This document shows, piece by piece, positions 33,665-61,360 of a stretch of DNA of 64,000 nucleotides. The DNA comes from Cordylochernes scorpioides (taxonomy: Eukaryota; Arthropoda; Arachnida; Pseudoscorpiones; Chernetidae): the NCBI GenBank assembly GCA_030710605.1, contig CP092886.1:163540000-163603999 (forward strand). The letters are read 5' to 3'. Position numbers and translations under genes: made by a program. How positions within the stretch are numbered: the stretch's first letter is position 1; each line of letters begins with the position of its first letter. Below the pieces are notes generated by a model. It saw only the letters and a program-made list of their open reading frames with translations. It was not told the DNA's origin and ran no database searches.

Positions 33665-33669
33665 CAGAC

Positions 33670-36290: not shown

Positions 36291-36304
36291 TGTGAAGAGT
36301 TGAG

Positions 36305-36920: not shown

Positions 36921-37040
36921 GACCCGCTGATTAGCTTGTCTCAGCCCTTGTTCTGGAAGGAAATCTATCACGGCTGGTGTTCCCTAGTAGAATAGAATGT
37001 TGTTCTTCAGGGTCCAGGTAGGGCTTCATCCGAATGACAT

Positions 37041-37640: not shown

Positions 37641-37651
37641 TTCCCCCATAT

Positions 37652-38143
37652 TTGTTTGGTCGACCATTCACTGTTGTCACTGACCATCATTCTCTATGTT
37701 GGTTGGTAGGGCAGAAAGATCCTTCTGGCCGTTTGGCAAGATGGGCGCTGAAGTTGCAAGAATTTGACGTGACCGTTATCTACAAGAGCGGACGCAAACA
37801 TAAGGATGCCGATTGTCTGTCAAGGAGCCCGCTTGAGAACGATCAACCAAGTTCTGTGATGTCACTAACCAACGTCGATATAGAGCAGACTAAAGACCCG
37901 GATTTAGCTAAAATAATCGATAATTTAAACTCGGGATACACCAGAAAGGAATTCAGCATTATCGACGGCATCTTATACAAGAAAAACTATAGCACAACTG
38001 GAAGACCCTGGCTTATGATGATCCCTAAGCACTTAAGATCGGAAATTATGGCAGATTTACATGATGCTCCTACAGCTGGGCATTTAGGTTTCGCCCGAAC
38101 GTATGACAAAGTCAAGAAACGATTCTATTGGTCTGGCCTTTAA
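37652..38143 (+). pseudogene. Gypsy 3 RNase H end and integrase zinc finger
   Basis: [11 protein letters not shown] (RNase H D), then DADCLSRSPL, and the integrase finger start H-D-A-P-T-A-G-H. One TAA (38141-38143) interrupts what is otherwise a continuous frame into the integrase core. Confidence 0.85.
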
Positions 38144-44290: not shown

Positions 44291-44302
44291 AATTATTGTT
44301 TT

Positions 44303-44566
44303 GATAAAGCCGAATTTGGATTATAGATTATTGCTACAATAAAATAAGAACTAATCCAAATAAATTAATAGTGTGTGACGTTTCGGTAACTGCATTGTTA
44401 CCATCATCAGACAAAAGAATAAATTACATACTTGATAATAGTACTATTTGAAAACATGTTGTGATATTTTTTCTCATTTATTCTTTTGTCTGATGATGGT
44501 AACAACGCTGTTACCAAAATGTCACACACTATTAATTTATTTGTATTAGATCTTATTTTCTTGTAT
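44303..44566 (-). mobile_element. Family B palindromic unit (B' variant), target duplication 12 bp
   Basis: Starts GATAAAGCC and ends CTTATTTTCTTGTAT. Flanked by AATTATTGTTTT at 44291-44302 and 44567-44578. Two hammerhead-like cores face each other: minus 44377-44410 (CTGATGA, T, GGTAAC/GTTACC, GAAAC, GTC) and plus 44490-44523 (GAAAC changed to AAAAT). The spacer is about 80 bp. Confidence 0.75.
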
Positions 44567-44867
44567 AATTATTGTTTTCTTTCTGTCAAATTTTGAAATG
44601 GGGGCTAAAACTAGAAATTGAGGTTTAAAATGTTTGAAAAGTTGTTGTTTCTTCATTGAAACATAAATGCTGAACAAAAAAAAGCCATGCCTTAATGATC
44701 TGGAACAAACATATAGGTAACACAGGCTCCTGGGAGAAAGATCTGGAGTCATCTATTAAATACATTTAGAAAAATTGTCATCGTAAGCAATCAATGATGG
44801 AAATCTATTATTTTTTATTCTGCTTGAGGCTTTATGGGGTAGAGGCTCTTTATTTATATTGTATGGG

Positions 44868-45165
44868 GGGTCGGTGGAAGGCTGGTTGACCGTTTGGTTT
44901 TCGACCACTACCACCCGGGTTCGATTCCCGCATTGGACACTTTTTTCTGTTAGAAAAAAAAATGCTCCAATGGCCCCCGATTTTTGCAAAAGTCCAACCC
45001 CACCAGCGAGTGCAAGTAACCAAACGGGGCTCTGGCACATTTGTAAGTGCAAAGTCAAACTGCTTTACACATGTGTAGACATGTGGTGCACTTACAGTAA
45101 AAGCAGTCGCTAACTACCCACCATGATTATCATGGCCTCTACCACGTGTACTAGGGATAAGCAAA
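44868..45165 (+). mobile_element. SINE-T, full copy
   Basis: The tRNA-like head has GGTCGGTGGAAGGCTGG (A-box-like) and GGGTTCGATTCCCGC (B box), followed by GACACTTTTTT and a body with CAAAAGTCCAACCCCACCAG, CACATGTGTAGACATGTGG and CACGTGTACTAGGGATAAGC. Not a functional tRNA gene. Confidence 0.75.
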
Positions 45166-45354
45166 AAAAAAAATTATATTGTGTGGTACTCAAGCGCTGA
45201 CTGGTGTGGCCCAAAAATGGAAGTGCATGAACCCGAGCATATCTCAGGTCTGCCACTTAAAATGTTATAGGTGAATGAGAAAGGCAAAGGCCTGTATTAA
45301 AACTCCCAAAATGTATTCCTACAAATGCAATATTTTCAATCCTTCTTTATATAT

Positions 45355-45660
45355 ATAAAAATAAGGCCAAATCCAAATAAATAAATAGTGTATGACATTT
45401 AGGTAACAGCATTGTTACCATCATCAGACAAAAGTACTGAATGACGCTGTTACGTGTGACGTTTCGGTAAAGGTGTTGTTACCATCTTCAGACAAAAGTA
45501 CTGAATGAGAAATTTTACCACAGCATGTTCATCTCATTCAGTACTTTTGTCTGAAAATGGTAACAACGCTGTTACCGAAACGTCACACAATATTTATTTA
45601 TTTCGATTTGGTCTTATTACCTTGTGTTTATAATCTATAATCCAAATTGTGCTTTATCAG
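45355..45660. mobile_element. Family B units, clustered
   Basis: Cores: minus 45394-45427, minus 45458-45491 (CTGAAGA, GAAAC, GTC) and plus 45551-45584 (CTGAAAA). The last two are an inverted pair around GTACTGAATGAG. The right end runs to CAAATTGTGCTTTATCAG. Confidence 0.7.
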
Positions 45661-45736
45661 GTAAAGGTACTGATAAATTATTTATTTATTTGTTCTTGTC
45701 ACCTTCATAAAGCACTTTTGGGATTATAGATACAAA

Positions 45737-46010
45737 AAAATTATGATACTAACAACGCTGTGTGTGTGTTGCCAAAACGTCACACACTATTAATTTATTT
45801 GGATTAGGGTTTATTTTCTTGAATTCTTGTCACCTTGTTTCCAATCTATAAACCAATTTTTACCTCATCAAGAGTTACCTAATCATCATCCAGTACTTTG
45901 TCTGATGATGGTAACAATGCTGTTATTGAAATGCCATAAACATTTCAATAATTTGGATTTGGTCTTGTTACCTTTTGATTATGCTCTAAGCAGCTTTGTA
46001 TCAGAAAGAA
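45737..46010 (+). repeat. Decayed family B copies
   Basis: Cores at about 45737-45785 (AACAACGCTG, then CCAAAACGTCAC) and 45902-45935 (CTGATGA, T, GGTAAC, TGAAATGCC). A tail at 45930-45975 (CATTTCAATAATTTGGATTT) is the B2 variant also seen at 54240-54385. Confidence 0.5.
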
Positions 46011-46221
46011 GTATTTGGAAGGCATAGTCAGAACCTTGAGCGTCGCTTTCTTTGCTAGGTAATCTTTGGATTTTCAGCAAGCTTCAGCTCCGCCCACAAG
46101 TCAAAACAACACAGGAGTTGCTACAGAACAATGTTCTTGCCTTTGTAAGACTGGCCATCTGAAAACCCAGACTTCAACTTCCTTGACTGATCTCTTGTCT
46201 AAAAGCTTTACAAGAAGTGCA

Positions 46222-46910
46222 ACTCCACCTTTTCCAGTCCCAAGCCCGGATGAAAAAGGAGGAGGGGGAGCAGTAACAAGCTCGGTAAAAAACCTGGGCT
46301 CAGCTGGCCCGGCTGATAGTATCCTGTAAGGGCTCCTAATCCAGGGATACAGGATGAGCAGTGTTTGTACTCCATGTTAGGAGCGGCTGCACATGGCGTC
46401 TGTTCCTCATGTCAGAGGCGGCCATTTCTTTTGGAGCTAAGTCGGCCTGCCACTGAGTAGTGCTCCCAGTCTTAATGACAAAGGCAGACACATTCTACTT
46501 CATCCAGTCATGATGATTGTCGGGGGGTCGGTGGAAGGCTGGCTAAACCGTTTGGTTTTCGACCACTACGACCCGGGTTCGATTCCCGCATTGGACACTT
46601 TTTTCTGTTTAAAAAAAAAAATGCTCCAATGGCCCCCGATTTTTGCAAAAGTCCAACCCCACCAGCGAGTGCAAGTAACCAAACGGGGCTCTGGCACATT
46701 TGTAAGTGCAAAGTCAAACTGCTTTTCACATGTGTAGACATGTAGTGCGCTTACAGTAAAAGCAGTCGCTAACTTTCCACCATGATTATCATGGCCTGTA
46801 CCACGTGTACTAGGGATAAGCATAAAAAAAAATGTGTCAAACAGACACAGTCACAACTTTATACCCTAATATGATTGAAGGAGATAAGAAAGAATAAGAA
46901 GACAAGAAGA
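46222..46910 (-). mobile_element. R350 copy 3, interrupted by SINE-T
   Basis: R350 runs 46222-46513 on the minus strand and resumes at about 46840 (CACAACTTTATACCCTAATA, then GAGATAAGAAAG). A SINE-T (46518-46830, plus, with GGGTTCGATTCCCGC) sits between. Confidence 0.7.
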
Positions 46911-47115
46911 GCATTCCAAATTGGACAGTTTAAAGCTTCCATTGAGGAAACAGTAGCCAAATTAATTCTGTTGATGATGCATGCAGCTATGGCATTCTGG
47001 TCTGATTGTGTTAGGCTGGGGTTTGATTATACTCTGGTAGTTGCTTGGACTGTTTTTATAAAATGTGTAAAAAAAATGCCCCTTTTGTTTCAATACCTTT
47101 CTGAAGGTATATATA

Positions 47116-47352
47116 CAGTAGAACCTCCCTGTAAAGGACACCTAATTGCAGAGCCAAAGTGTCCTTTAGGGAGAGGTGTCCTCTTACCGGAGAGTTGCTA
47201 AATTATAAAAATGGTAATTTTGTAAGTGAAAACTGTCCTTTGTAGAGAGGTGTCCTCTTACCGGAGAGTTGCTAAATTATAAAAATGGTAATTTTGCAAA
47301 GGAAAACTGTTCTTTATAGAGATGTGTCTGCTAAAGGGAGGTTCTACTGTAT
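47116..47352. mobile_element. MITE ACAGTAGAACCTCCCTGTAA
   Basis: Inverted ends (ACAGTAGAACCTCCCT with the complement GGGAGGTTCTACTGT). The middle has an internal duplication of CTTACCGGAGAGTTGCTAAA. Confidence 0.75.
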
Positions 47353-47416
47353 ATCTAAGAAGCTCTAATAGAGATAAAATTATTTGCTAGAAGGATAAAT
47401 TGATCTTTAAAAAGAA

Positions 47417-47640
47417 ATGTCACCTCTCCTGTCAAAAAAAAAAAAAGCTAAAAACAAAGTGCAATATATTGACAGTCTTTGCAAACTAACAGACTAGGTC
47501 GGTGACAAAGCCACAATATCAGCTTTGGCAATTTCAAATATCCACCTGGAAACCATGGTTTTGGGCTATGGCCCTTGTCAGTGCCGGGTGAGCTTAGAAT
47601 TCATGAGATTCATAGGGGATTCATGAAATCATCGGAAGTG
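47417..47640 (-). repeat. Family A2 hammerhead-like repeat
   Basis: Minus core at 47540-47600: CTGACAA, GGGC/GCCC, AAAAC, CATGGT. Core bases are changed, stem II is intact. The left flank carries a foldback end (ATGTCACCTCTC) and CAAAGCCACAATATCAGC, which recurs inverted at 49375-49490. Confidence 0.45.
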
Positions 47641-47654
47641 GCTGAAGAGGTGTT

Positions 47655-48545
47655 TAAGTAGAAAAATGGCTAGGACAATTCTGTGGTTAAAAATATAGAT
47701 AAAAACTTTGCCAGGAAAATATATATAGAGTCGAACCTTTTTAATTCAACACCCCAAGGGATCAGAGCTTTCGGTTGGATTAGAGGAGGTGTTGAATTAA
47801 GGTTAGATGATTAGCTAATCATCTAACTCCTAAAATAATATTTATTAAAAATAACTTTGTAATATAAATTAATGATATTAATTGAAACAATTGTGTATGT
47901 ACTTTTTTTGTATTTTTATTTTTTTATTTTCATGATTAACCTTTATTATCAGGGACAAAATGGCATTAATACATATTTTATAAACATAAATAATTGTAAC
48001 AAATAAATTTACTGGCAATGTGTTTATTTTCAATAATATAATCAAATATTAACTCTACATACCTTATTTAAAGGAAATAAATATGGTAAATAAAAAGAAA
48101 ATTTAAAAAATATTATTTTTTAAAAAATCATGAAGATCTTTTCAAAAATTCCTTTATAGATATCTGTTTTTGCACTGAAATCCTATTCAGGATGTATTCC
48201 AGATGGTCATTTAAAAAAAAAAAAAACATGCTTGTCTTTTTCTGAAATGTCATTTAATAAATAAATTTTATTTTATTAAAGGCATCCACTGCTGCTGCAG
48301 GTGTTATTGATTTTGTGTTTGAATCTTTTATAATAACATGGAAATGGAATATTGAAATAAAATGTTATCATAATCATTGTGGCTACATTTTATAAATATT
48401 TATTTATTTAAAAGGAAATTATTTTTAAATTTTAAAATAACAAAAATATTTAAATGCTGAAATTTAAAAATAAAATACACATCTACACGTATATATTTTA
48501 TAAATTTTTATCTTTCTTTTTTCTTAAAAAAAATCTGCATGTGTA
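47655..48545. other. No gene seen
   Basis: AT-rich. A single foldback-type end (AATAAATTTACTGGCAATGT) lies at 48001. The 47728-47810 stretch with CAACACCCCAAGGGATCAGA is complementary in part to 52310-52400. Confidence 0.4.
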
Positions 48546-48552
48546 AAATGGA

Positions 48553-48790
48553 ATTTTCTTTTGATAAAGCACAATTTGGATTATAGATACAAGAAAATAA
48601 GACCTAATCCAAATAATTAATAGTGTGTGATGTTTCAGTAACAGCATTGTTACCATCATCAGACAAAAGAATAAAAAAGAATAATAAAAAAAATATTCTT
48701 TTGTCTGATGATGGTAATAATGCTGTTACCGAAACATCACACATTATTAAATTATTTGGACTAGGTCTTATTTTCTTGTATATTTTTTTT
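48553..48790 (-). mobile_element. Family B' palindromic unit
   Basis: Starts GATAAAGCACAATTTGG and ends CTTATTTTCTTGTAT. Cores: minus 48629-48662 and plus 48705-48738, both CTGATGA with GAAACATC. Spacer about 42 bp. Confidence 0.7.
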
Positions 48791-48972
48791 ATTTTTTTTT
48801 TTTATTAGAAAAATACGTACCTTCATTTGGCTGCTGCATAAATAGTAAATCTGGTAGTTGACAATCTATGGATACCTTCTGGTGCCTGGGAAAGAGTAAA
48901 TTACTTTCTCTTTTTTTACCATAATTTTTTTTTCATGTTGGGCCATAGCTCACAATCATGTTCTCCAGAAAC

Positions 48973-49340
48973 TCCGCCATTGCCGGTCCCAAGCCCGGAT
49001 GAAAAAGGAGGAGGGGGAGCAGTAACAAGCTTGCTAAAAAACCTGGGTTCAGCTGGCCCGGCTGATAGTACCCTGTAAGGGCTCCTAATCCAGGGATACA
49101 GTATGAGCAGCGTTTGTACTCCATGTTAGGAGAAGCTGCACATGGCGTCTGTTCCTCATGTCAGTGGCGGACATTTCTTTTGGAGCTAAGTCGGCCTGCC
49201 ACTAAGTAGTGCTCCCAGTCATAATGACAAAGGCAGACGCATTCTACTTCACCCAGTCATGATGGTTGTCAAACATACACCATCAAGGGTCACAACTTGA
49301 TACCTAATATGATTGAGTGGAGATAAGAAAGAAGAAGATG
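48973..49340 (-). mobile_element. SINE-like repeat R350, copy 4
   Basis: Minus-strand sense from GCCGGTCCCAAGCCCGG to GATAAGAAAGAAGAAG. Confidence 0.7.
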
Positions 49341-49374
49341 TTCTTCAGATGGGCATCCAGAATTTGCCAAAGCT

Positions 49375-49490
49375 GGTGTTGTGGCTTTGTCACCGACCCG
49401 GGTTAGTTTGTGGAGACATGTCAATAAATAGTGCTTAGTTTTTTATTTGCATCTATTTTGATGGGGGAGGTTACCTCTCTTTTTATAGAC
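49375..49490 (-). repeat. Inverted copy of the 47417-47530 repeat
   Basis: GTTGTGGCTTTGTCACCGAC through GATGGGGGAGGTTACCTCTC. Confidence 0.55.
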
Positions 49491-49499
49491 ACATATTCT

Positions 49500-49685
49500 C
49501 ACAATAATAAGGCCAAATCCAAATAAATAAATAGTATGTGATGTTTCGGTAACAGCGTTGTTACCATCATCAGGCAAAGTACGAAACGTCACACACTTTT
49601 TTTAATTTGGATTTGATCTTATTATTACCTTGTATTTCTAATCTATAATTCAAATTGAACTTTATCGGACTTATGTCCTAAGTAA
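49500..49685. mobile_element. Family B unit
   Basis: Minus core 49540-49573 (CTGATGA, GAAACATC) facing a truncated plus half (GAAACGTCACAC at about 49583). Right end CCAAATTGAACTTTATC. Confidence 0.6.
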
Positions 49686-49797
49686 CAGAACTTATGAGAT
49701 AGAAGTACTATAGTTCTAAAAGATTAAGTCTATCTCTCTCTCTCATTTCCTTGAATAACACTTTGTCAAAATTTCTACCAAGCGTCTACAATGTATA

Positions 49798-50126
49798 TAC
49801 AGTAGAACCTCCCTGTAAAGAACACCTAATTGCAGAGCCAAAGTGTCCTTTAGGGAGAGATGTCCTTCTACCGGAGAGTTGCTAAATAGTAAAAATGATA
49901 AACACAAGGTAATAAGGCCAAATCCAAATAAATAAATAGTGCGTGACGTTTCGGTAACAGTGTTGTTACCGAAACGTCACACACTATTTATTTATTTGGA
50001 TTTGGTCTTATTACCTTGTGTTTATAATCTATAATCCAAATTGTGCCTTATCAGTAAAAATGATCATTTTAAAAATTAAAACTGTCCTTTATAGAGAGGT
50101 GTCCTCTCATGGAGGTTCTACTGTAT
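49798..50126. mobile_element. MITE interrupted by a family B unit
   Basis: The ACAGTAGAACCTCCCTGTAA MITE is split: left 49798-49899, right 50053-50126. The insert is 49900-50052. Confidence 0.85.
49900..50052 (+). mobile_element. Family B palindromic unit, target duplication 12 bp
   Basis: Inside the MITE, flanked by AGTAAAAATGAT at 49888-49899 and 50053-50064 (perfect). Starts AAACACAAGGTAATAAG, ends ATTGTGCCTTATC. The two arms meet inside stem II (GACGTTTCGGTAAC then GTTACCGAAACGTC), so each arm keeps GAAACGTC but neither has CTGATGA. Only the right arm carries the extra tail after CTTGTGTTT. Confidence 0.9.
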
Positions 50127-50129
50127 AGA

Positions 50130-50920
50130 GAGAGAGAAGCCAAGAGACAAAATATTAGGTGTCTGGAAATTAAACTGGACAAACACAGCTGGGTGGGTTT
50201 CCCTCTACTGAGCTTGGTGGACATTTTAAAAAATAATTTCATTGTAGTTAGGACTGTATAGAAAGACAATTGACAATTTAAACATTTTATTGACATTGTG
50301 TCAATTCTCACAAATTAAAGATGAAAACTAAATATTCTAAGGATAATATAATGATAAATACAAGTGTACAATGTCTATATACAATGATTGCTAGCATGTT
50401 GTGGAATTTGTCTGAAGATTATAAGCAGGTCTCCATCCACACACACACACACACAGTGCATTTCCTTGTTGACAAAGAAGACATACTGTGTTACATTGAG
50501 GAAGTGATGTCATGATCTTCAAGGCCCACTGAGAAGATCCAGTCTGAAGATCCAGCAGCCTCCTGATGATGGAGAATGCCTCTCTATGAGAAGCAGGTAG
50601 CGCTGCAGGACCAGTAGTGGTGGGAGAGCCACCAGTGATACAGACAGGCTGGATTGATACAGAGTGCCCTGGATGAGGCAGATTCAGCCATAGAGCAATG
50701 TCTGCTGCAAGACCCCCAAAGGAACCACAACAGAGAGACACAAAGGACATGCTAGTAAAGGGCAGGTCAACCACAGGTGCCTTGCTGAAGATACCTCAAG
50801 ATGGAAATGGCAGCAAGGCAGGGATGCTTCAGAATTCAACACACAATGTGCAGCGACTTCAAAATATGAACTTTTTGTCCATGAGTGTATGTTAGGGTTT
50901 GCTAACAGCATTTTTACCAC
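50130..50920. other. No gene that I can support
   Basis: GC-richer 50420-50880 has open frames on both strands (minus 50391-50774, 127 codons; plus 50698-50895) but no recognisable domain. It ends in a MITE-like TTTTTGTCCATGAGTGTATG at about 50872. May be a relic of a transposon interior. Confidence 0.3.
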
Positions 50921-50921
50921 A

Positions 50922-51383
50922 TCTATATATATAAAAATGAATGTTTGTATGTTTGTCTGTTGGTTGGTCTGTATGTCCGGTATACAAATTCGCAGTAGTT
51001 CACTAATTCAAACCAAAATTTCCATACATAGGTAAAAAAAAACGAGGATGACGATAGGCTATTTTAAAAATATATAAATCAATTATTAAAACTATATATT
51101 CAAATTATTGTAAATAGCTCACGAGCAGCGCCCTCTAGAATGCGGTGGATCTGATGGCGGGGCGCGCCCATTGGCCGCCTGCGAGCACGTGGCTTCCCTG
51201 TGCGCGCGCATGCGCCGGGAAGCCACTTGCTCGCCGGCAGCCGACGGGAGCAGTCACTTGCTCGCCGGGAGTCAACGGGCGCAGACATTTACTCGCTGGC
51301 AGCCAACGGGCACATGTTTATAATGTGTTTGAATAATACATTTAATCATGTAAACCCGGGCGTTGCCCGGGTCATTCGTCTAG
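50922..51383 (+). mobile_element. Non-autonomous Helitron (second family)
   Basis: 5' TCTATATATATAAAAATGAA, 3' hairpin ACCCGGGCGTTGCCCGGGT, then CATTCGTCTAG; host A at 50921 and T at 51384. The GC-rich interior has three copies of CACTTGCTCGCCGG-like units. Short frames are shadows. Confidence 0.85.
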
Positions 51384-51407
51384 TACATTATATTACATAC
51401 ATTACAC

Positions 51408-51762
51408 TTTGCCGGTCCCAAGCCCGGATGAAAAAGGAGGAGGGGGAGCAGTAACAAGCTCACTAAAAAAACCTGGGCTCAGCTGGCCAAGCTGATAATA
51501 CCCTGTTAGGGCTCCTAATCCAGGGATACAGGATGAGCAGTGTTTGTACTCCATGTTAGGAGCAGCTGCACATGGTGTCTGTTCCTCATGTCAGAGGCGG
51601 CCATTTCTTTTGGAGCAAAGCGACCTGCCACTGAGTAGTGCTTCCAGTCTTAATGACAAAGGCAGACACATTCTACTTCACCCAGTCATGATGGTTGTCA
51701 AGTCTCAAGCTTTACAAGCTTGATACCCTAATTTGATTGAGTGGAGATAAGAAAGAAGAAGA
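51408..51762 (-). mobile_element. SINE-like repeat R350, copy 5
   Basis: Full-length copy ending GATAAGAAAGAAGAAGAG. Confidence 0.7.
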
Positions 51763-51819
51763 GAAGATTATTACCATAATTAGATGAGGTACTGAATGAA
51801 TATACATGCTTACAATGAA

Positions 51820-51925
51820 ATGCGCTCATTCAGTGCTTTTTCCTGATGATGGTAACAATGTGGTTACCAAAACATCACATATGATTTAATAATTTGTATG
51901 TGTTCTTGTTACCTTTATGTTTCTC
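51820..51925 (+). repeat. Family B copy
   Basis: Core 51843-51876: CTGATGA, T, GGTAAC..GGTTACC, AAAACATC. Tail as in variant B2 (GTTCTTGTTACCTTTATG). Confidence 0.5.
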
Positions 51926-51929
51926 TACT

Positions 51930-52430
51930 ATTCTATTAATTCTTGCACATTTCTTTTGAATTGAAAAGAGGCTTCTTTAAATTATTTATTGAAATATATA
52001 ATTATCTCATAGTCTAGAATTTTTGCTAAAGTAAAATTATTTTTCCCAACATTTTTTATATGTATCCCAACCAATCCCAACCATTTTGCTTCCAAAAATT
52101 TCCATATTTAATTCAATTAATATAATTTAATACCTTCTATAATTCAACCATTTTCCAAATTCCAAAAATCCTATACGTTAATTTATATCAAATCCTCCAA
52201 AAAAGACCTCTGGGAAACCCCCAGGACTATAATATAAAAGCTGAGACAATGGAACCTAATGGAGATCATTTAAATGACTTGAGGAATAAGCAACAACAAC
52301 AACAATGTTAATTTAACCAGGGATAATTCAACACTAACTTCAAATCAACCTAAAACTCCTATTTCTTGAGGTGTCGAATTAAAGAAGTTGAAAACTGTAT
52401 TATCCTATAATGACATTTACATAAGGCAAT
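51930..52430. other. No gene seen
   Basis: AT-rich sequence. 52300-52400 (AACCAGGGATAATTCAACAC) resembles the complement of 47728-47810, a dispersed MITE-like fragment. Confidence 0.4.
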
Positions 52431-52436
52431 AACCAA

Positions 52437-52515
52437 ATGTAAACTCAATAAATTGTGTGACATTTCAGTAACAGCATTGTTACCAATATATCATATATAA
52501 TTTATGTATTTGGAT
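52437..52515 (-). repeat. Truncated family B half
   Basis: GTGTGACATTTCAGTAACAG then GTTACCAATATATC. No CTGATGA. Confidence 0.4.
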
Positions 52516-52549
52516 AGGAAATGCTGCTATAGTAACAAAATAAAATGCC

Positions 52550-52732
52550 CAAGGAAATAAGACCAAATCCAAATAAATTAATAAATAGTGTGTGATATTT
52601 CGGTAACAGCATTGTTACCATCTTCAGATGATGGTAACAACGCTGTTACCGAAACATCACACACTATTTATTTATTTGAATTTGGTCGTATTACCTTGTG
52701 TTTTTAATCTATAATCCAAATTGTGCCTCATC
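52550..52732 (+). mobile_element. Family B palindromic unit, target duplication 11 bp
   Basis: Flanked by AAAATAAAATG at 52539-52549 and 52733-52743. Cores: minus 52594-52627 (CTGAAGA, GAAATATC) and plus 52625-52658 (CAGATGA, GAAACATC) share only the bases CAG at the centre. Ends in ATTGTGCCTCATC. Confidence 0.8.
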
Positions 52733-52849
52733 AAAATAAAATGTCTTTTCATGTAAAACACCCAAAAATAAAATTAATATAACCAGTTATGAAAAGAATA
52801 TTTTTATAAGCTAAATGTTGAATATAATGAAAATATTATTAAGCATAAT

Positions 52850-53060
52850 TTTTTGGATTATAGATTAGAAACACAAGATAATAAGACCTAATCTAAAAAG
52901 ATAAATAGTATGCGATGTGTTTCGGTAACAGCATTGTTGCCATCATCAGTACTTTCATTCAGTACTTTTGTCTGATGATGGTAACAAAACTGCTACCGAA
53001 ATGCCACACATTATTTATTTAAAGTTGGTTTTATTACTTTGTGTTTATAATGAAACTCCT
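52850..53060. mobile_element. Family B inverted pair
   Basis: Minus core 52914-52949 (two-base insertion before GAAAC) and plus core 52972-53005 (GAAATGCC). Spacer 22 bp with GTACTTTCATTCAGTAC. Confidence 0.6.
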
Positions 53061-53164
53061 GAAATTTTCTGTCATTAATAAAAATGAAAACAAGAAGTTA
53101 TTAAAAAAAAAGTACTTACCAACGTCAATGAAAGTGAATATACTCAGTAAATATTTATATTATA

Positions 53165-53330
53165 CTAAACACAAGGTAATTAGACCAAATTCAAATAAAT
53201 AAATAGTGTGTGACGTTTTGGTAACAGCATTGTTACCAAAATGTCCCACACTATTAAATTATTTGGATTTGGTCTTATTTTCTTGTATCTATAATCCAAA
53301 ATGTGCTTTATCATACCTTGTGTTTACTTT
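53165..53330 (+). mobile_element. Family B palindromic unit, arms meeting in stem II
   Basis: 53212-53245: GACGTTTTGGTAACAGC then GTTACCAAAATGTC. Left end AAACACAAGGTAATTAG, right end AATGTGCTTTATC. Confidence 0.65.
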
Positions 53331-53604
53331 TTGTCACTTATAGTATAATATATCAGCCGTTAACTACCCTCCATTATTATCATGGCCTGCACAATGTGTA
53401 CTTGTAATTAGCAATATGTATATTGATTTAACAATATGAATTGGGAAAGAATGGCAATCATGTACCAAAAGACAATCTTTCCATTTTAAAATGCATTCCT
53501 TTAATGCAGAGTGTCCCATAGTGAGAATGTCCTCTCATTGTGTGTATTTGTGGAAGTTTTACTGTATTTTTAATTATGTAACAAAAGTAACAAGATAAAT
53601 TTAG

Positions 53605-54226
53605 ACACAAGGTAATAAGACCAAATCCAAATAAATAAATAGTGTGTGACGTTTCGGTAGCAGCGTTGTTACCATCTTCAGACAAAAGTACTGAAGTGTC
53701 TGAAGATGGTAACAACGCTCTGTTACCGAAACGTCACACACTATTTATTTATTTGGATTTGGTCTTATTACCTTGTGTTTATTATCTACTAGCCGAATGA
53801 CCCGGGCAACGCCCGTGTTTTACCCGATTGAATGTTTTGATTCAAATACTATTTGTTACAATTATAAATTGGCGCCTTATATAAATGCATATGTTAGTTA
53901 ATAACTATAGCCTATGTGCTTTATCTGTCTATGTACTGTTGGCTTCCGTAGGCGTCTCTTACTGGGAAAAAGAAAGAGAGGATTCCATTTGGTTATTAAC
54001 TAATATATGCATTTATTTAAGGAGCGACCCGCTCCAACACAATGGTTACAAAAACGATAAAGCGAGTGGGGGGCATGATGGGGGGGGGGGGGGCAAAGGT
54101 GGCGTGATCGTAGCCGACCAATAGGAGGGCGCCATTCCAAAAAAAAAAAAGCAAACGGTGACAGAGATGACTGATGAAGAATGACGCTCGTAACTGTATA
54201 TAGAAAAATCCAAATTGTGCCTTATC
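53605..54226 (+). mobile_element. Family B unit carrying a Helitron, target duplication 13 bp
   Basis: Flanked by AAGATAAATTTAG at 53592-53604 and 54227-54239 (perfect). Inverted cores: minus 53648-53681 (CTGAAGA, GAAACGTC) and plus 53700-53735 (CTGAAGA, GAAACGTC, one insertion in the loop). The Helitron 53789-54205 (minus) sits in the right tail between ..ATCTA and AATCCAAATTG. Ends ATTGTGCCTTATC. Confidence 0.85.
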
Positions 54227-54239
54227 AAGATAAATTTAG

Positions 54240-54385
54240 GAAACAAAAGGTAACAAGACCAAATCAAATTATTGAAATGTATGTGATTGTTCGGTAAAAA
54301 TGCTGTTACCAATATGTGACAAACATTTCAATAATTTGGTCTTGTTACCTTTTGTTTATAATCTATAATCTAAATTGTACCTTAT
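54240..54385 (+). mobile_element. Family B2 palindrome
   Basis: Related unit with AAAAGGTAACAAGACCAAAT ... ATTTGGTCTTGTTACC-type arms and a decayed core at 54286-54320. Right end CTAAATTGTACCTTATC. Confidence 0.6.
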
Positions 54386-54529
54386 CAAGACTAAACAACT
54401 CAGCATGACAATCCAGTATCACCAAGAGTGACATTATCAGAATAGAAATTGTAGCAATGCTGCTACTCTAACATTGTTAATGCTAATGGAATTTGGAGAC
54501 ACTCCAGCTACTGAATGTTTTTATTCTCT

Positions 54530-54985
54530 CGACGTTCCGACTAAACGCTTTTGTCAAAACATCGAGAGAATAAAAACATTTTCTAGCCGAAGTGTCTCTT
54601 CTTCTTCTTTCTTATCTCCACTCAATCATTTATGACTGGGTGAAGTAGAATGTGTCTGCCTTTGTCATTAAGACTGGGAGCACTACTCAGTTGCAGGCCA
54701 ACTTAGCTCCAAAAGAAATGGCCTCTTCTGACATGAGGAACAGACGCCATGTGCAGCCGCTCCTAACATGGAGTACAAACACTGCTCATCCCTTATCCCT
54801 GGATTAGGAGCCCTTACAGGATACTATCAGCCGGGCCAGCTGAGCCCAGGTTTTTTTAGTGAGCTTGTTATTTCTCCCCCTCCTCTTTTTTCATCCGGGC
54901 TTGGGACCGGCAAAGGCGGAGTTAGAAGTGTCCCTTAATTCTAATGGATGCCGGCCAGGCAACCTCTATCTTCATGATAATTGAA
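54530..54985. repeat. Family C repeat interrupted by R350
   Basis: 54530-54590 has GTTTTTATTCTCTCGACGTT and its complement AACATCGAGAGAATAAAAAC as an inverted pair, then GCCGAAGTGTC. The R350 copy 6 (54595-54925, plus) is inserted next to GAAGTGTC, which recurs after it. The end block GCCGGCCAGGCAACCTCTAT follows. Confidence 0.6.
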
Positions 54986-55119
54986 TTTGTTTATTTTTAT
55001 TTTTACTTTTATACTCCCATATTTCTGGAGTTGATTGAAGAGTGATATAAACCATTAATTTTTCAAAACCACCACAACCCAGAATCCCACATGGGCACTT
55101 TTTTATAATAAAAAAATTT

Positions 55120-55256
55120 TAAACACAAGGTAATAAGACCAAATCCAAATAAATAAAAAGAGTTGTTACCGAAACGTCACACACTATTTATTTATTTATT
55201 TGGATTTGGTCTTATTACCTTGTGTTTATAATCTATAATCCAAATTGTGCCTTATC
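55120..55256 (+). mobile_element. Family B unit, target duplication 13 bp
   Basis: Flanked by AATAAAAAAATTT at 55107-55119 and 55257-55269. Left arm shortened to AAACACAAGGTAATAAG..AATAAAAAG; right arm from GTTGTTACCGAAACGTC. Ends ATTGTGCCTTATC. Confidence 0.8.
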
Positions 55257-55329
55257 AATAAAAAAATTTCTCCAATGGCCACTGATACTTGCAAAAGTCC
55301 AATACCACCAATGAGTGCAAGTAACCAAA

Positions 55330-55429
55330 NNNNNNNNNNNNNNNNNNNNNNNNNNNNNNNNNNNNNNNNNNNNNNNNNNNNNNNNNNNNNNNNNNNNNNN
55401 NNNNNNNNNNNNNNNNNNNNNNNNNNNNN
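55330..55429. other. Assembly gap, exactly 100 N
   Basis: A round-number gap is normally a placeholder of unknown size. Confidence 0.95.
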
Positions 55430-55559
55430 CCAGGCTCTGGCACATTTCTAAGTGCAAAAATCAAACTGCTTTCCACATATGTAGACATGTGGTACATTTA
55501 CAGTAAAAACAGTCGCTAATTTCTACCCACCATGATTATCATGGCCTGTACCACGTATC

Positions 55560-55765
55560 GACTCATGGACAAAAGGAAGTTTTACCTTTTAGCATGTATA
55601 TCGGGATTCAGACAATAACTCTGAAAGATATTTGATGCCCAGTGACCTTTATTGAAAATACACAAGTTAACCAAGTGTGAACAAAATTGCCTCTATTTTC
55701 TTTAAAAAAAATATATAGATGATCAGCAACATCAAAGACAATTTTGTTCATGAGAGCGTGTGTAC
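55560..55765 (-). mobile_element. CACTCATGGACAAA MITE, decayed
   Basis: Left end GACTCATGGACAAAAGGAAG, internal CAGTGACCTTTATTGAA, right end ATTTTGTTCATGAGAG. Confidence 0.6.
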
Positions 55766-55769
55766 TTAG

Positions 55770-56035
55770 AATTTTTTTTTTTTTTTTAAGTTTTGTCAGT
55801 GTCTTTAGTTAACAATAACTAAAATGTATATTTAATAACAGTAAGGTCAATAGTATAATACACTTAGCCATGTACTTTAATAATATACCTTATATCATAT
55901 AACTAATTATCGTATGATGATATATTTATATGACTAATTATTTTATTTGCTCACTCCCCACACACACACTGTTGGAAGATTTCTTGCAAGTTTCATTTTT
56001 AAAATTGAATATTTAGAATTGAATGAATACATAAA
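55770..56035. other. No recognisable feature
   Basis: AT-rich. Confidence 0.4.
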
Positions 56036-56039
56036 GTAA

Positions 56040-56440
56040 CAAGGGGGTTGAGTGCTATAAACCATAAATTTTCAACAACCCCACAACCCAAGATCAAAAA
56101 TCCCATATTGGACACTTTTCAAAAATAAAAATGTTTCAATGGCTCCTGATTCTTGTAAAAGTCCAATCCAATCATTGATTGCAAATAGCCAAACAAGGCT
56201 GTCTTACAAACACAAGGTAATAAGACCAAATGCAAATAAATAAATAGTGACGTTTCGGTAACAGCATTGTTACCATCTTCAGACAAAAGTTCTGAATGAG
56301 ATGGTAACAACGCTGTTACCGAAGCGTCGCACACTATTTATTCATTTGGATTTGGTCTTATCACCTTGTGTTTATAATCTATAATCCAAATTGTGCTTTA
56401 TCAAGGCTGTCTTACTTTAAGTGTAAAAGTTGAACTGCTT
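56040..56440 (+). mobile_element. SINE-T copy interrupted by family B
   Basis: A decayed SINE-T (CACAACCCAAGATC.., TTGGACACTTTTC, GCAAATAGCCAAAC) is split at 56207; after the insert it continues TTTAAGTGTAAAAGTTGAAC. Confidence 0.65.
56208..56402 (+). mobile_element. Family B palindromic unit, target duplication 13 bp
   Basis: Flanked by AAGGCTGTCTTAC at 56195-56207 and 56403-56415 (perfect). Minus core 56249-56282 (CTGAAGA, GAAACGTC) and plus half 56300-56328 (GAAGCGTC). Starts AAACACAAGGTAATAAG, ends ATTGTGCTTTATC. Confidence 0.88.
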
Positions 56441-56527
56441 TCTACATGATATGTACAATTTGGATAATAGCTTAGAAACATAAGGTAAGAAGACTAAATC
56501 CAAATTAATGAAATGTTTGTGACATTT

Positions 56528-56735
56528 AGGTAACAGCATTGATAAGGCACAATTTGGATTATCGATTATAAAACAAGGTAATAAGACCAAATAAATAAAT
56601 AGTGTGTGTGCAACACACTATTTATTTGGATTTGGTCTTATTACCTTGTTTTAGGTAACAGCATTGTTACTGAAAGATCACAAGCATTTCATTATTTTGG
56701 GTTTGGATTTGTTACCTTATGCTTTCTACATGGGT
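56528..56735 (-). mobile_element. Family B unit nested in an older family B unit, duplication 14 bp
   Basis: The insert 56542-56652 is flanked by AGGTAACAGCATTG at 56528-56541 and 56653-56666. Its arms meet at GTGTGTGTG|CAACACAC, so both ribozyme cores are gone. It sits within the stem II of an older minus-strand B copy. A SINE-T tail follows at 56725-56810. Confidence 0.8.
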
Positions 56736-56864
56736 AGACATCCAGTGCACATACAGTAAAAGCAGCCGCTAACTACCCATATGGTTACCATGGCCTGTAC
56801 CACGTGTATTTGAAATAATAAAAAGAAACAACCTTGTGATCCATATCCATAATCCAAACCCTTT

Positions 56865-57280
56865 TGATAAAGCACAATTTGGATTATAGATTATAATACA
56901 AGAAAATAAGACCTATATAATATTACCCTAATAAACTAATTGGATTAGGTCTTATTTTCGTGTATCCAAACCCTTTTATAAAAAGGAAAATCATTTTCCA
57001 AGGTACAAGATAATCTAAATAACTCTATTCTCTATCTGCAAAGTTTTGATAATTATCAGCAAGGCTACCAGACTGTGCCAACACTATATAGGAGACATGC
57101 ATGGTAGCAATGCTTTTACCAAAGATGGTCGCTTAATATATTTATTGGTCTATTTTGTGATTCTTTGTTTAATATCCAAATTGTATCTTATCGAAGTACA
57201 TTATATGTGAAAAAGGCACCTCATCCTTTTAACAAATGAGTAAAATGTCTTAAAACAATGCATCTTAACCAAACTAGTCA
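56865..57280. other. Family B' fragments and unidentified AT-rich sequence
   Basis: 56870-56970 is a short B' palindrome without ribozyme (GATAAAGCACAATTTGG.., TAGGTCTTATTTTCGTGTAT). No gene. Confidence 0.45.
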
Positions 57281-57285
57281 ACCCT

Positions 57286-57340
57286 GTACTGATTAGGGCA
57301 ATAGTCTGAAATTTGGTATACACACACAGGGGTATGAATT
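57286..57340 (+). ncRNA. Hammerhead-like motif, family A2, beside the Penelope remnant
   Basis: CCCTGTA, CTGATTA (G8 is T), GGGC..GTCT, GAAAT, TTGGTATAC, then ACACAGGGG. The CCCTGT/ACAGGG stem I is kept across a small insertion. Core changes suggest it is inactive. Confidence 0.4.
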
Positions 57341-57378
57341 TGTTCAAATTTTCCAAAGCTGGAATTGTTGTTTATTTG

Positions 57379-57697
57379 GTAAGTGAGTTTAATTTATGAA
57401 GTGAAATGTGAAAAATGTGACCAATGCTATGTAGGACAAACATCCGGAACTTTAAAAAAGAGAATGAAAAACCATGAATATGCTCTGATATGGGATAAAA
57501 TTGATAAATTCTGCACTTGTAGAACATGGAAAAATCACAGGGCATAATAATTTTAACCTAAAAGAAACAAAGATACTAGATTATGAGAAAAATTATTTTA
57601 AGAGACAATTTAAAGAAGCATTTTTCATTCAAAAGAAATGTGCTACAATTAACAGAATGGAAGAAAGAGGAAATATAAATGATATTTATAGATATTA
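57379..57697 (+). pseudogene. Penelope-like GIY-YIG endonuclease remnant
   Basis: The frame reads VKCEKCDQCYVGQTSGTLKK then RMKNHEYA, the C-x-x-C, Y-V-G and R-x-x-x-H pattern of the Penelope GIY-YIG domain. Near 57490 the frame shifts by one in an A/T run and continues (57501-57697) with LVEHGKITGHN, KILDYEKNYFKRQFKEAFFI and INRMEERGN, matching the family's C-terminal order. Reverse transcriptase is absent; only the element's 3' coding end remains. It is followed at once by inverted repeats (57698-57790). Confidence 0.75.
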
Positions 57698-57800
57698 AAA
57701 TTTTACACAAATAAATTTACTGGCAATGCGTTTCTTTTAAATATCATCAAATATTATCATTGCCAGTAAATTTATTTGTGTAAAATTTTAATGATAGATG
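57698..57800. repeat. Inverted repeat behind the endonuclease
   Basis: AATTTTACACAAATAAATTT, ACTGGCAATG and their complements (57757-57790) enclose a 25-bp loop. Same ends as 26455-26640. Confidence 0.65.
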
Positions 57801-57989
57801 GCAATAAAATTTAATTTACTAATTTATAGATATGCTTTTAATTATATTTAATTTTAAAAAATGGGTTTTTCCACTTTTAATTTTAAGAATAATATTCTGT
57901 GTTTCTCAGATAACTATCTTCTTCTTATCTGTTATCTTGTTTACACACTTGATAACAGTAACTATTTAAAAAATGCTGTGGTAAAATTT

Positions 57990-58080
57990 CTCATCCAGTA
58001 CTTTTGTCTGAAGATGGTAACAACCGAAACGTCACACACTATTTATTTATTTGGATTTGGTCTTATTCCCTTGTTTTATA
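57990..58080 (+). repeat. Family B copy with shortened stem II
   Basis: Core 58008-58033: CTGAAGA, T, GGT-AACA-ACC, GAAAC, GTC. A deletion in stem II leaves a three-pair stem with a four-base loop but keeps every core base. Confidence 0.6.
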
Positions 58081-58182
58081 TACCCTTTAACTTAATATAA
58101 CCTTAAAACCCAACCAAAATAATTTTGCTTATTGTTTAAAATTAAATGTTATAGCACCTTTGTGGTAACAAGTCCAAATATT

Positions 58183-58699
58183 AACACAAGGCAATAAGAC
58201 AAAATCTAAACGCTGTTACCAAAATGTCACACGCTATTTATTTATTTGGATTTGGTCTTATTACCTTGTGTTTATATTCTACTAGCCGAATGACCCGGGC
58301 AACGCCCGTGTTTTACCCGATTGAATGTTTTGATTCAAATACTATTTGTTACAATTATAAATTGGCGCCTTATATAAATGCATATGTTAGTTAATAACTA
58401 TAGCCTATGTGCTTTATCTGTTTTTGTACTGTTGGCTTCCATAGGCGTCTCTTACTGGGAAAAAGAAAGAGAGGATTCCATTTGGTTATTAACTAATATA
58501 TGCATTTATTTAAGGAGCGACCCGCTCCAACACAATGGTTACAAAAAAGAAAAAGCGAGTGGGGGGGGGCAAAGGTGGGGTGATCGTAGCCGACCAATAG
58601 GAGGGCGCCATTCCAAAAAAAAAGCAAACGGTGACAGAGATGACTGATGAAGAATGACGCTCGTAACTGTATATAGAATAATCCAAATTGTGCCTTATC
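58183..58699 (+). mobile_element. Second family B + Helitron composite
   Basis: Flanked by AAGTCCAAATATT (58170-58182) and AAGTCCAACTATT (58700-58712), 12 of 13 identical. The core is reduced (ACGCTGTTACCAAAATGTC at about 58211-58231). The Helitron 58282-58678 lies at the same site as in the 53605 composite, between ..TTCTA and TAATCCAAATTG. Ends ATTGTGCCTTATC. Confidence 0.82.
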
Positions 58700-58854
58700 A
58701 AGTCCAACTATTGTTGAGCCTCCTTATAACATCACTTAGAACCAACCTCAATTTTGTTATAATCATTTTGTTGTTATAAAAGAGGCTGTTAAAACAAGGT
58801 CCCACTTTTAGTAATATACAGGAGTATTTCAGTAACAGCCAAGTGCTTCTATCT

Positions 58855-58920
58855 ATAATCCAAATTATAACCATGTTGCTTGAAGATGTTAACAAAGCTG
58901 TTACTGAAAGTCGCATATAA
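58855..58920 (+). repeat. Decayed family B copy
   Basis: TTGAAGATGTTAACAAAGC, then GTTACTGAAAGTCGC. Confidence 0.4.
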
Positions 58921-58923
58921 ATT

Positions 58924-59226
58924 AACTCCGCCTTTGCTGGTCCCAAGCCCAGATGAAAAAGGAGGAGCAGTAACAAGCTCACTAAAAAACCTGGGCTCAG
59001 CTGGCCCGGCTGATAGTACCCTGTAAGGGCTCCTAATCCAGGGATACAGGATGAGCAGCGTTTGTACTCCATGTTAGGAGCGGCTGCACATGGCGTCTGT
59101 TCCTCATGTCAGAGGCGGCCATTTCTTCTGGAGCTAAGTCAGCCTGCCACTGAGTAGTGCTCCCAATCTTAATGACAAAGGCAGAAGCATTCTACTTTAC
59201 CCAGTGTGGAGATAAGAAAGAAGAAG
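58924..59226 (-). mobile_element. SINE-like repeat R350, copy 7
   Basis: Complete apart from a small deletion. Ends GAGATAAGAAAGAAGAAG. Confidence 0.7.
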
Positions 59227-59308
59227 ACATATAAATGACTTATTTGGATTTGGTCTTGTTACCTTGTGATATTTAGCTACTCAAGTTTTATCTAGTGATT
59301 TTTATCTA

Positions 59309-59627
59309 TGCAATTTGATATAAAGCACAATTTGGGTTATAGATTATAATTCAAGAAAAGACCTAATCCAAATAATTTAATAGTGTAAAAATAAGACCTG
59401 ATCCAAATAATTTAATAGTGTGTAAAATAAGACCTAATCCAAATAATTTAATAATGTGTAAAAATAAGACCTAATCCAAATAATTTAATAATGTGTAAAA
59501 TAAGACCTAATCCAAATAATTTAATAATGCGTGTTAAAATAAGACTTAATCCAAATAATTTAATAGCGTTTCACACACTATTAAATTATTTAGATTAGGT
59601 CTTATTTTCTTGTATCTCTGCAATTTG
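59309..59627 (-). mobile_element. Family B' unit with tandem left arm
   Basis: TGCAATTTG at 59309-59317 and 59619-59627 is a likely 9-bp duplication. The arm AAAATAAGACCTAATCC..AATTTAATA is repeated about six times with a 36-bp period (59388-59560) before the single facing arm. No ribozyme core remains. Confidence 0.65.
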
Positions 59628-59629
59628 TT

Positions 59630-61360
59630 TTGAAATCTAAACAAAAAAATAATAAAGTAAAAAAGCTTATGTGGAGCAAATATGTTATGACCTATTGAAT
59701 TTGAAATATTTATATATGGGGTGAATAAACCTTTAAAATATTTGGATAAAATGTGCACTCTTATTCTTTTTTCGATTAAAATGTGCATCTAACATCAATT
59801 TATTTCTTCTGCGTGTACCAATCGCTTTATGCGAATTTTACACGCCATATTGAAAATACGAGTTTCTAGTTGGCTTTTTCCCTTTTTTTTTTCAACTGCG
59901 CGCTCCATAAATTACAATAATAAACATATCACTTGGTCATAAATATTTATTGCAAAATGTTTTTTTCGATATTTTATAAAAGTATATCGTAATTTTCTTA
60001 TATTTTTACTCATAAATTTTTATTTATTTATTTTTAATATATTTATATTAAAAGATAATAATGAATAAATATATATAATATTTTGATGTATTGTAGTTCA
60101 AATATCAAGCAAACTCTTAACGCACACTCTAAAGAAGACTTTTTAACTTTTATTAAAACTTTTTTTTAAGTAGAGTAAATTTTTTAAAATTTTAATAGAA
60201 ACTTTTTAAAAATAGTCACAAAAACTCCGAAATCAACCATCATTTTTTAATTATATACATTTTAAATAAATATAGATTAAAATTAATCCTGTTCCATCTA
60301 TGATAACCATTCATTCATTTATAAGATCTAAAAATATATGGCATTGATTGTGACAGAGCTTCTTAAAATATATATTTTTTTCGAAAACTTATTTTCTTCT
60401 GGATTTAACATAAAGATTTATTGAGCGAAAAAAATGGAGCCCAATTATAAAATTAATTTATTAAATTTCTTACATTAATATGTTTGTTCAAATTTCAGGC
60501 GTTATATTCATGATTATCCAATCACATCTCTCTGCACTATTTTCATTGTGTTCTTACCTTTTTTTTACAAAATATTTTGTTATTTTGAAACTTATCATTT
60601 TAAATAATTCCTATGAAAAACACCTTTAAGTGCTCGCTATTGCAACTTCTATTTAAACTTAATTAAAAATGAATAATTCGAGAATAATTTGTAAGTGAAA
60701 AAATTTTTGCCCCCCTTTTTGAACAATAGGTTCAGCTAAAGATCCCATTTTTTGAAGATTTAGACCGTTTACCATCTTTTTAATACATTTTGAAACCAGA
60801 TTCATCAAGAGAGATATTAATAACCCAAGTTCCTGGAACGCCAACTACTGTTGCGTTCCCTGGTTTGGATAGATGAAAAGGGAGGATACACGATGTGACT
60901 TATTAAAGTTTCCTTACTTAAGTATATATATATATAGCAATTTAGGCCAACAACCCCATGTATATAACCCGCAGCAAGACCTTAATGTTGTATAATGGTA
61001 AATATGATGGAATAACGCACTGAAACACATAAAAGTACAAACATTACTAAAACCTGACAGATAATTACCCTCAAAGTAGCCCTAATAAAGTCGTAATTTT
61101 GCAACTGTTGCTGTGTCAATATATCACAGCAAAGATATAGTACACAACTCTATTTCAACAGAGTCGGTTGTTCTATAATTTGTACACTTTGTAAAATTAA
61201 GGTGTGGGGGGTAGTACCATAAAGCAAAAGGAATGAAATATGTATGAGAGAAAACAAGAAAATTTCTCTAGATATTTATTTAAATAAATTAAAATTTGGG
61301 AACATGTCTATACTGACGAGATATGCTATTTACATAGTAAAAATTTAGATAGAGGTGACC
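59630..61360. other. No gene seen
   Basis: Strongly AT-rich. A 58-bp satellite relic (AACCCAAGTTCCTGGAACGC) is at about 60820 and a frame at 60659-60844 is unsupported. Confidence 0.45.

Follow-up and report, generated by a model that had tools for sequence, protein, structure and literature searches.

Short palindromic repeats with hammerhead-like motifs (family B) are scattered through part of a 64,000-nucleotide stretch of the Cordylochernes scorpioides genome (the window), and they raise the question of what it is that moves: the palindrome itself, or an element that leaves a palindrome behind. In published accounts of Penelope, elements have inverted pseudo-LTRs, a tail of ~30 bp at one end and short target site duplications (TSDs) (PMC3846280; PMC11167929), so the end structure of family B, which a preliminary description held not to be a standard one, has already been described. 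How Penelope integration is completed is an unsettled question; inverted pseudo-LTRs have so far been attributed to self-priming, and the 2024 in vitro study, in its own account, leaves the later integration steps to validation (PMC11167929). Short insertions are very numerous in the C. scorpioides genome (on the order of 100,000 units, by rough extrapolation), and their ends, tails, junctions and natural tag can be read directly; if most palindromes are formed at landing, these repeats are a natural record of integration by Penelope-like elements (PLEs).

The repeats of family B in C. scorpioides are real and mobile. In the reading that we prefer, to which we assign a probability of roughly 80%, the units represent insertions of a GIY-YIG PLE that have undergone very strong 5' truncation, and the palindrome is remade at most insertions. 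Family B is not a new kind of element, and its donor belongs to a known type of animal retroelement. We infer that the palindrome is an integration scar, new at most insertions, and not a heritable mobile unit.

Target duplications carry the case for mobility. All nine of those listed in the preliminary description hold, one of them (52539/52733) after a correction of about 2 bases that places the repeat CAAAATAAAATG at 52536-52547 and 52732-52743. When a TSD was scored by its effective length, that is, its length minus 3 for each mismatch, with a threshold of 9 bp, 12 of 19 two-armed window units had one, against 5 of 342 mismatched flank pairs. Genome copies were collected with the 153-bp unit at 49900-50052 as query, and TSDs were found in 27 of 36 non-duplicate copies (40 units minus the local duplicates L012, L024, L025 and L032) and in 11 of 1260 mismatched flanks. 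Over 66 TSDs, the length is 9-17 bp with a median of 13, and A+T content is 76.9% versus 64.5%. The preliminary description had named a genome-wide lack of consistent ends or of target duplications as grounds for abandoning mobility; both were looked for and neither occurred.

In the window, subfamily P2 lies on the minus strand, with u1 at 44303..44566 (tail left, right arm entering the 3'UTR, TSD AATTATTGTTTT), u3 at 45707..45824 (tail left, TSD TTCTTGTCACCTT, 13 bp), u5 at 48563..48781 (tail left, no clear TSD), u19 at 56866..56966 (TSD ATCCAAACCCTTTT, 14 bp) and u21 at 59320..59617, which has a tandem 36-bp arm segment and a TSD (59309/59619) that is 9 bp long if exact and 15 bp long if one mismatch is allowed. 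On the same strand, u17 of subfamily P3 (56455..56724, TSD TGCTTTCTACATG, 13 bp) is interrupted by u18 (56542..56652), which sits inside it and duplicates 14-17 bp of u17's own sequence. The TSDs of u3, u17 and u19 had been missed earlier. Plus-strand units are u7 (49900..50052, stem-II-centred, tail right, TSD AGTAAAAATGAT), u10 (52550..52732, tail right, TSD CAAAATAAAATG), u15 (55121..55256, TSD AATAAAAAAATTT) and u16 (56208..56402, TSD CAAGGCTGTCTTAC), together with two that carry a Helitron-like insert: u13 (53605..54226, insert within the tail, TSD CAAGATAAATTTAG) and u20 (58184..58699, the same insert with a different junction, TSD with one mismatch).

The arms of these units are the pseudo-LTR of a GIY-YIG PLE, as is shown by contiguity with the endonuclease end. 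At 57387..57695 (plus strand) the donor family's coding end for the GIY-YIG endonuclease is present in frameshifted form (Pfam 18.3 bits, cutoff 22.6), and the 3'UTR and pseudo-LTR of the same copy follow at 57822..58080 (plus strand). Among the matches listed, the endonuclease end joins the 3'UTR and pseudo-LTR directly at 40 of 40 places outside the window. Some arms hold only a piece of the pseudo-LTR, others extend across the 3'UTR and others reach the endonuclease ORF, so that 5' truncation can be seen; the earlier statement that the unit has no coding capacity is right for the short units and wrong for the family. One 1.25-kb copy, L068, is a single insertion with a 12-bp TSD and comprises an inverted pseudo-LTR, a truncated ORF with GIY-YIG, a pseudo-LTR and a tail; the inverted pseudo-LTR stands head to head with the element, as in PLEs. 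Its GIY-YIG domain scores 23.0 bits in Pfam, above the cutoff of 22.6, while those of the window copy and of P0001 fall below it. Two shorter insertions, L120 and L121, supply the same line of evidence. For the part of the L068 ORF before the endonuclease, a Pfam search gave no match and a homolog search with the reverse transcriptase-side piece found none, which counts against our reading; a search of solved structures returned nothing useful.

The outer ends of the units differ from each other. The shared ends AAACACAAGG and (C/T)TTATC are present as first described, and one outer end corresponds to the distal tail site (..CTTATC) and the other to the proximal site (AAACACAAGG). Among 31 units (13 random and 18 from the window, with u2, u4, u8, the ORF copy and the composite L067:4954 set aside), 6 have no tail, 25 have one and none has two (P = 2e-4 versus independent tails), and two tails occur in none of the scored TSD-bearing two-armed units. 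The 6 tail-less units run counter to our best reading. Inverted repeats with flanking target duplications would also be expected of a DNA transposon with terminal inverted repeats (MITE), but the TSDs are of no fixed length (9-17 bp), the extra tail is at one end only, the inner ends are cut off at many places and the family runs into a GIY-YIG ORF, and we attach almost no credence to such an origin.

Whether the palindrome is inherited can be read from the Helitron-like tag, passenger DNA in the PLE tail that is present at 4824 places. The unit classes were drawn from matches to a query sequence, and the tagged sample consists of 20 exact matches on one chromosome (the right ends of L111 and L115 lie outside the stretch examined). 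Five of 23 tagged copies are not two-armed, and L107 has two tails and no TSD that could be found. Of the 18 two-armed tagged copies, none has the tag in its inverted arm and 13 have a TSD; the junctions of these 13 are stem-II-centred in 4, and the other 9 are all distinct. Because inverted arm and junction differ between insertions, the palindrome of tagged copies is not inherited as such, and the proposal that family B moves as a palindromic unit is for the most part wrong. If the palindrome were itself a non-autonomous element, with a transcript spanning both arms that the PLE enzyme copies in full, this would account for the many units with the same stem-II centre and for the junction of u16, which is found at 13 places with different flanks, ~10 of them not local duplicates (11 of the 12 other places were examined). 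Two of the copies with this junction, L096 and L098, have arm variants in common, and a third, L095, resembles a copy read through a junction; on these grounds some palindromes, though few, may be copied whole. Against whole copying as the usual route stand the 9 different junctions among tagged insertions and the arm ends of the 13 random and 18 window units, which are mostly different. We consider this route unlikely, and inheritance as a palindrome was rejected as a general rule.

Comparison of the two arms bears on the same question and on self-priming, in which a cDNA turns back on its own 3' end, for example at stem II, and copies itself into a palindrome. This is the explanation favoured in the Discussion of PMC3846280, there with an antisense template, and it agrees with our own tally of two-armed units, 11 of 46 of which are centred on stem II. 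It predicts equal arms, but a rare arm variant, present overall in 1 of 24 arms, is confined to a single arm in 48 of the 49 units that could be scored and is shared by both arms in just 1. Decay of a CpG does not explain the one-armed variant, since the C of a neighbouring CpG is retained in 52 of 62 arms. Arm end points are likewise uncorrelated (rho 0.18, p 0.34), and self-priming alone does not yield a single tail; we regard it as quite improbable. Within the stem-II class both arrangements of the rare variant exist, which also tells against copying of whole units. Distances of left and right arms are uncorrelated (r = 0.02, p = 0.45), a weak test for a star-like family, and distance tests between arms do not discriminate between the readings. 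A left-arm bias of the G variant, seen in the 40 units minus the four duplicates named above and the incomplete L030, L033, L043, L045 and L047, was tried as proof of unit copying and discarded: a query of the opposite type (20 of 40 scored places examined) reversed the bias, and we therefore read it as ascertainment.

The insertions speak for priming at both ends with two RNAs as templates, and against self-priming. In such two-ended target-primed reverse transcription, the element's protein would make staggered cuts in both target strands, and each 3' end would prime one cDNA, starting at the distal tail site for one and at the proximal site for the other. The templates would usually be two different RNAs of the same subfamily, and the two 5'-truncated cDNAs would be joined head to head, often within the self-complementary stem II of the hammerhead. 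In vitro, a PLE protein is reported to cut and extend both strands and to start at two internal sites, the tail being the stretch between them (PMC11167929). A more specific version, an asymmetric integration by a protein pair on two RNAs, with distal and proximal priming and with the cDNAs joined chiefly at the stem II hairpin, is possible, and we offer it tentatively; what is conserved in the hairpin would then be its use in joining DNA, in place of or in addition to a ribozyme function.

The element studied in that work, Poseidon of Anolis carolinensis (PAc), resembles the present family in having two reverse transcription start sites that bound the tail, a hammerhead in the pseudo-LTR, AT-rich targets, and cutting and extension of both strands; the in vitro account gives no difference in start site between strands, whereas genomic units here have, as a rule, one distal and one proximal end (PMC11167929). 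In Adineta vaga Pen2a and other GIY-YIG PLEs, the account in PMC3846280 likewise has a pseudo-LTR head to head with an inverted one, a 31-bp tail at one inverted pseudo-LTR, short TSDs, a junction palindrome and 5' truncation. Those elements, by that account, mostly carry an ORF and are present in few copies, and self-priming is the favoured explanation, whereas the units here are mostly ORF-less, number ~100,000 by the rough estimate, have a median TSD of 13 bp, and have arms that look like products of two RNAs.

The hammerhead, judged by its motifs, is mostly degenerate across units and an optional part of the pseudo-LTR arm. More than 25 cores had been claimed, a number that was not borne out: a search of family B for the strict motif finds 6, including the core with a shortened stem II at 58008, in the 3'UTR and pseudo-LTR of the window's PLE copy. 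Of the 22 alignments from a tolerant scan, at least 4 lack the CTGANGA side and 6 have all 11 invariant bases and stem II; these 6 together with 53648-53681 (minus strand), from the strict search, make about 7 complete cores. The unit at 49900-50052, the exemplar of the preliminary description, is without a complete hammerhead because CTGANGA is absent on both strands, and the motif is missing from all 51 aligned units of the 153-bp class (the exemplar and 50 others). Rfam gave no hammerhead match at its gathering score, although the sequence motif is present. Hammerhead cleavage is not required for the product, as 36 of 50 arms of one-tailed units extend upstream beyond the cleavage site. Minimal type I hammerheads, described from PLEs and as dispersed motifs, are thought to act as dimers; as in these, helix III is nearly missing and the location is the pseudo-LTR; compared with the published descriptions, there is here an extra T between A9 and stem II, and most copies are degenerate or lack the 5' half (PMC6155905; PMC7761336).

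Such motifs could also point to an animal retrozyme, whose genomic copies would derive from a small circular RNA with a hammerhead. Metazoan retrozymes are described as short, AT-rich, hammerhead-related and possibly PLE-dependent (PMC7229834), with PLE enzymes thought to be used (PMC7761336), and the units here are likewise short and AT-rich, with cores that resemble type I hammerheads. Their basic form, however, is the inverted pair and not the head-to-tail dimer or multimer, the ribozyme is mostly incomplete, with CTGANGA absent throughout the 153-bp class, and the sequence runs on into an endonuclease ORF; a retrozyme is accordingly very improbable indeed. The truncated insertions also show where the dispersed hammerhead-like motifs of this genome come from: they are left behind as debris. 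Rfam matches to microRNAs (mir-2513 and others), each below its own gathering score, were taken as long-hairpin artefacts, and for each of six unit transcripts the predicted fold is a long hairpin in which arm pairs with arm.

The frameshifted coding end of a GIY-YIG endonuclease (EN) lies at 57387-57695 and, as a query against the source assembly G000 (24 contigs, 2.62 Gb), gave at least 40 full-length places listed outside the window (the best of 4361 candidates). At 40 of the 40 listed places the EN end is adjoined by a match to 57822-58024, that is, the 3'UTR and the start of the pseudo-LTR, with identities of 90-95% in 7 and 74-80% in 33. In the window a 126-bp palindromic insert (57696-57821), not in the 40 listed copies, lies between EN end and 3'UTR; related pieces occur at 26468, 26585 and 47999 and in two places elsewhere in the genome (L049 and L066). 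Elsewhere in the genome, L068 holds a whole insertion: between two copies of the target duplication (TSD) ATTTTTAGTTTT lie, in this order, an inverted pseudo-LTR, a truncated ORF whose GIY-YIG part scores 23.0 bits (cutoff 22.6), the 3'UTR, a pseudo-LTR and the tail. The only homolog found for its EN piece is annotated to the pseudoscorpion Cordylochernes scorpioides, and domain and homolog searches of its truncated ORF piece confirmed no reverse transcriptase domain. Truncation is further advanced in the EN-only copies L120 and L121, and L067:4614 and the window unit u1 end within the 3'UTR; the short palindromes are the far end of this Penelope-like element (PLE) truncation series, from L068 through L120/L121 to L067:4614/u1. 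A head-to-head pair at G000:C5:104031009-104032109, with the EN end in both arms, is a long-armed form of the family B palindrome.

Approximately 20 units, each of two head-to-head arms, occupy 44.3-59.6 kb of the window; arms were mapped on P, a model of the pseudo-LTR that also has versions for two subfamilies (P2 and P3). All nine TSDs of the preliminary description are present, three more were found, and an effective TSD of at least 9 bp flanks 12 of 19 two-armed window units, versus 5 of 342 mismatched flank pairs. Unit 56542-56652 is nested within unit 56455-56724 and is flanked by a duplication of sequence from that host. In unit u21 (59320-59617), a 36-bp arm segment (P2 343-378) occurs in tandem copies.

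Thirteen two-armed units in 5 of 20 random 10-kb stretches (one composite dropped) extrapolate roughly to the order of 100,000 units genome-wide; all samples other than the window and random stretches were drawn by query similarity or exact pattern. TSDs (n = 66) have a median length of 13 bp (range 9-17) and are 76.9% A+T, versus 64.5% in random stretches. In the 153-bp class they flank 27 of 36 non-duplicate copies (mismatched flanks: 11 of 1260); a second query gave 20 copies, 17 of them with a TSD.

The tails of u13 (53605-54226) and u20 (58184-58699) carry an insert at the same position (53780-54206 and 58281-58677, respectively), which we take to be Helitron-like from its TC start, hairpin and CTAG end. 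The insert-tail joint occurs at 4824 genome places with up to 2 mismatches, and a reversed control at 0. We read 23 tagged copies: u13, u20, L052 and 20 of 100 listed places, these being exact matches from the first part of contig C1 with neighbours skipped. Eighteen are two-armed (not L103, L112, L114, L116 and L118), and the right ends of L111 and L115 lie beyond the stretch read. TSDs, all different and that of L119 weak, flank 13 of the 18; the junctions of these 13 comprise four centred on stem II (L100, L109, L110, L052) and nine mutually different ones, and the insert is in the inverted arm of none of the 18. Therefore, the tail-bearing arm comes from a tagged source, and in tagged copies the inverted arm and junction are new; the proposal that the repeat moves as a palindromic unit is not upheld, and the observation underlying it was a good one. 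The junction of u16 (56208-56402), however, recurs at 13 places, approximately 10 of them not local duplicates, arm variants are common to two of these copies, and L095 resembles a copy read through a junction, so some palindromes may be copied as such; chance recurrence of a junction would also be expected at this copy number.

Fold-back (self-priming) of one cDNA would also make a palindrome, and predicts that a rare variant will be present in both arms. With a window unit as query, a variant found in 1 of 24 arms in the window plus random sequence was present in a single arm in 28 of the 29 units that could be scored: 26 had it on the left and 2 on the right, and the remaining unit had it in both (2 more units were gapped at the site). 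With an opposite-type unit as query, it was on the right only in 20 of 20. Both results disfavour fold-back. Loss of a hypermutable CpG is unlikely to explain them, because in 52 of 62 arms the C of a neighbouring CpG is retained. We favour two cDNAs, usually from two RNAs, primed at both target ends and joined head to head. The arms match in subfamily in 27 of the 29 units that could be classified, where 13.1 would be expected. Hence both RNAs usually come from a single subfamily, an agreement that fits copying as a unit as well; tests on the distance between arms were not discriminating.

In 36 of the 50 arms of units with one tail, sequence continues upstream beyond the cleavage site, so the templates of those arms were not cut there. 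Stem II is a hotspot for joining or pausing, being the centre in 11 of the 46 units with two arms. In the available part of Frangieh et al. 2024 (PMC11167929), one PLE protein cuts and extends both strands, RT initiates at two internal positions, the tail being the interval between them, and ribozyme mutants still insert. That study saw no strand difference in the start site, whereas family B follows a one-tail rule: of the 31 two-armed units sampled from the window and the random stretches, a single tail is present in 25, none in 6 and two in 0, with approximately 15, 11 and 5 expected under independence (P = 2e-4 for at least 25 with one). L107, a tagged copy, has two tails, and no TSD was found for it. 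A palindromic mobile unit with this end structure had been called, to the describer's knowledge, not a standard description, but the accessible text of Arkhipova et al. 2013 (PMC3846280) describes PLEs with pseudo-LTRs in inverted orientation, TSDs and a tail of 31 bp, and favours self-priming. As far as these texts go, our data are consistent with the former study and disfavour the self-priming of the latter. A search of open-licence literature, for most papers at the level of listed entries, found no published account of two-template priming or of palindromes made of pseudo-LTR alone. Family B is a very abundant PLE family whose integration products are unusually informative.

More than 25 hammerhead cores had been counted in the 15 kb; family B has only 6 instances of the strict motif. 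Scanning with tolerance returned 22 alignments, of which at least 4 lack the CTGANGA side and 6 retain all 11 invariant bases and at least 5 stem II pairs; with one clipped there and caught by the strict search, complete cores number approximately 7. The unit 49900-50052, proposed as query for genomic copies, lacks CTGANGA, as do the 50 further units of that class that were aligned (0/51). An unusual extra T precedes stem II; one cited study, by its title, deals with a viroid hammerhead that has an additional nucleotide in its core. For six palindromic units, the predicted transcript fold is a long hairpin in which the two arms pair. With stem III loopless (GAAAC-GTC), activity would need dimers, and PLE hammerhead motifs may self-cleave as dimers according to the available portions of two reviews (PMC6155905, PMC7761336).

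A second hammerhead family, CTGATGA..GAAACGCGTC, occurs at 414-443 (+) and 22773-22802 (-), the former overlapped by an HH9 match at 398-463 below threshold (26.5 bits, gathering 52), and a third kind of hammerhead-like core lies at 11923-11955 (-) and 34280-34312 (-). Matches to the twister-P1 ribozyme that stay below threshold (27-50 bits; gathering 67.2), at 46216, 48965, 51393 and 58919 (+) and 54874 and 27860 (-), fall within a dispersed repeat that has GCCGGTCCCAAGCCCGG and may represent a non-autonomous retroelement's 5' end. Long ORFs on both strands of 28362-39292 resemble, by eye, Gypsy-type gag-pol fragments.
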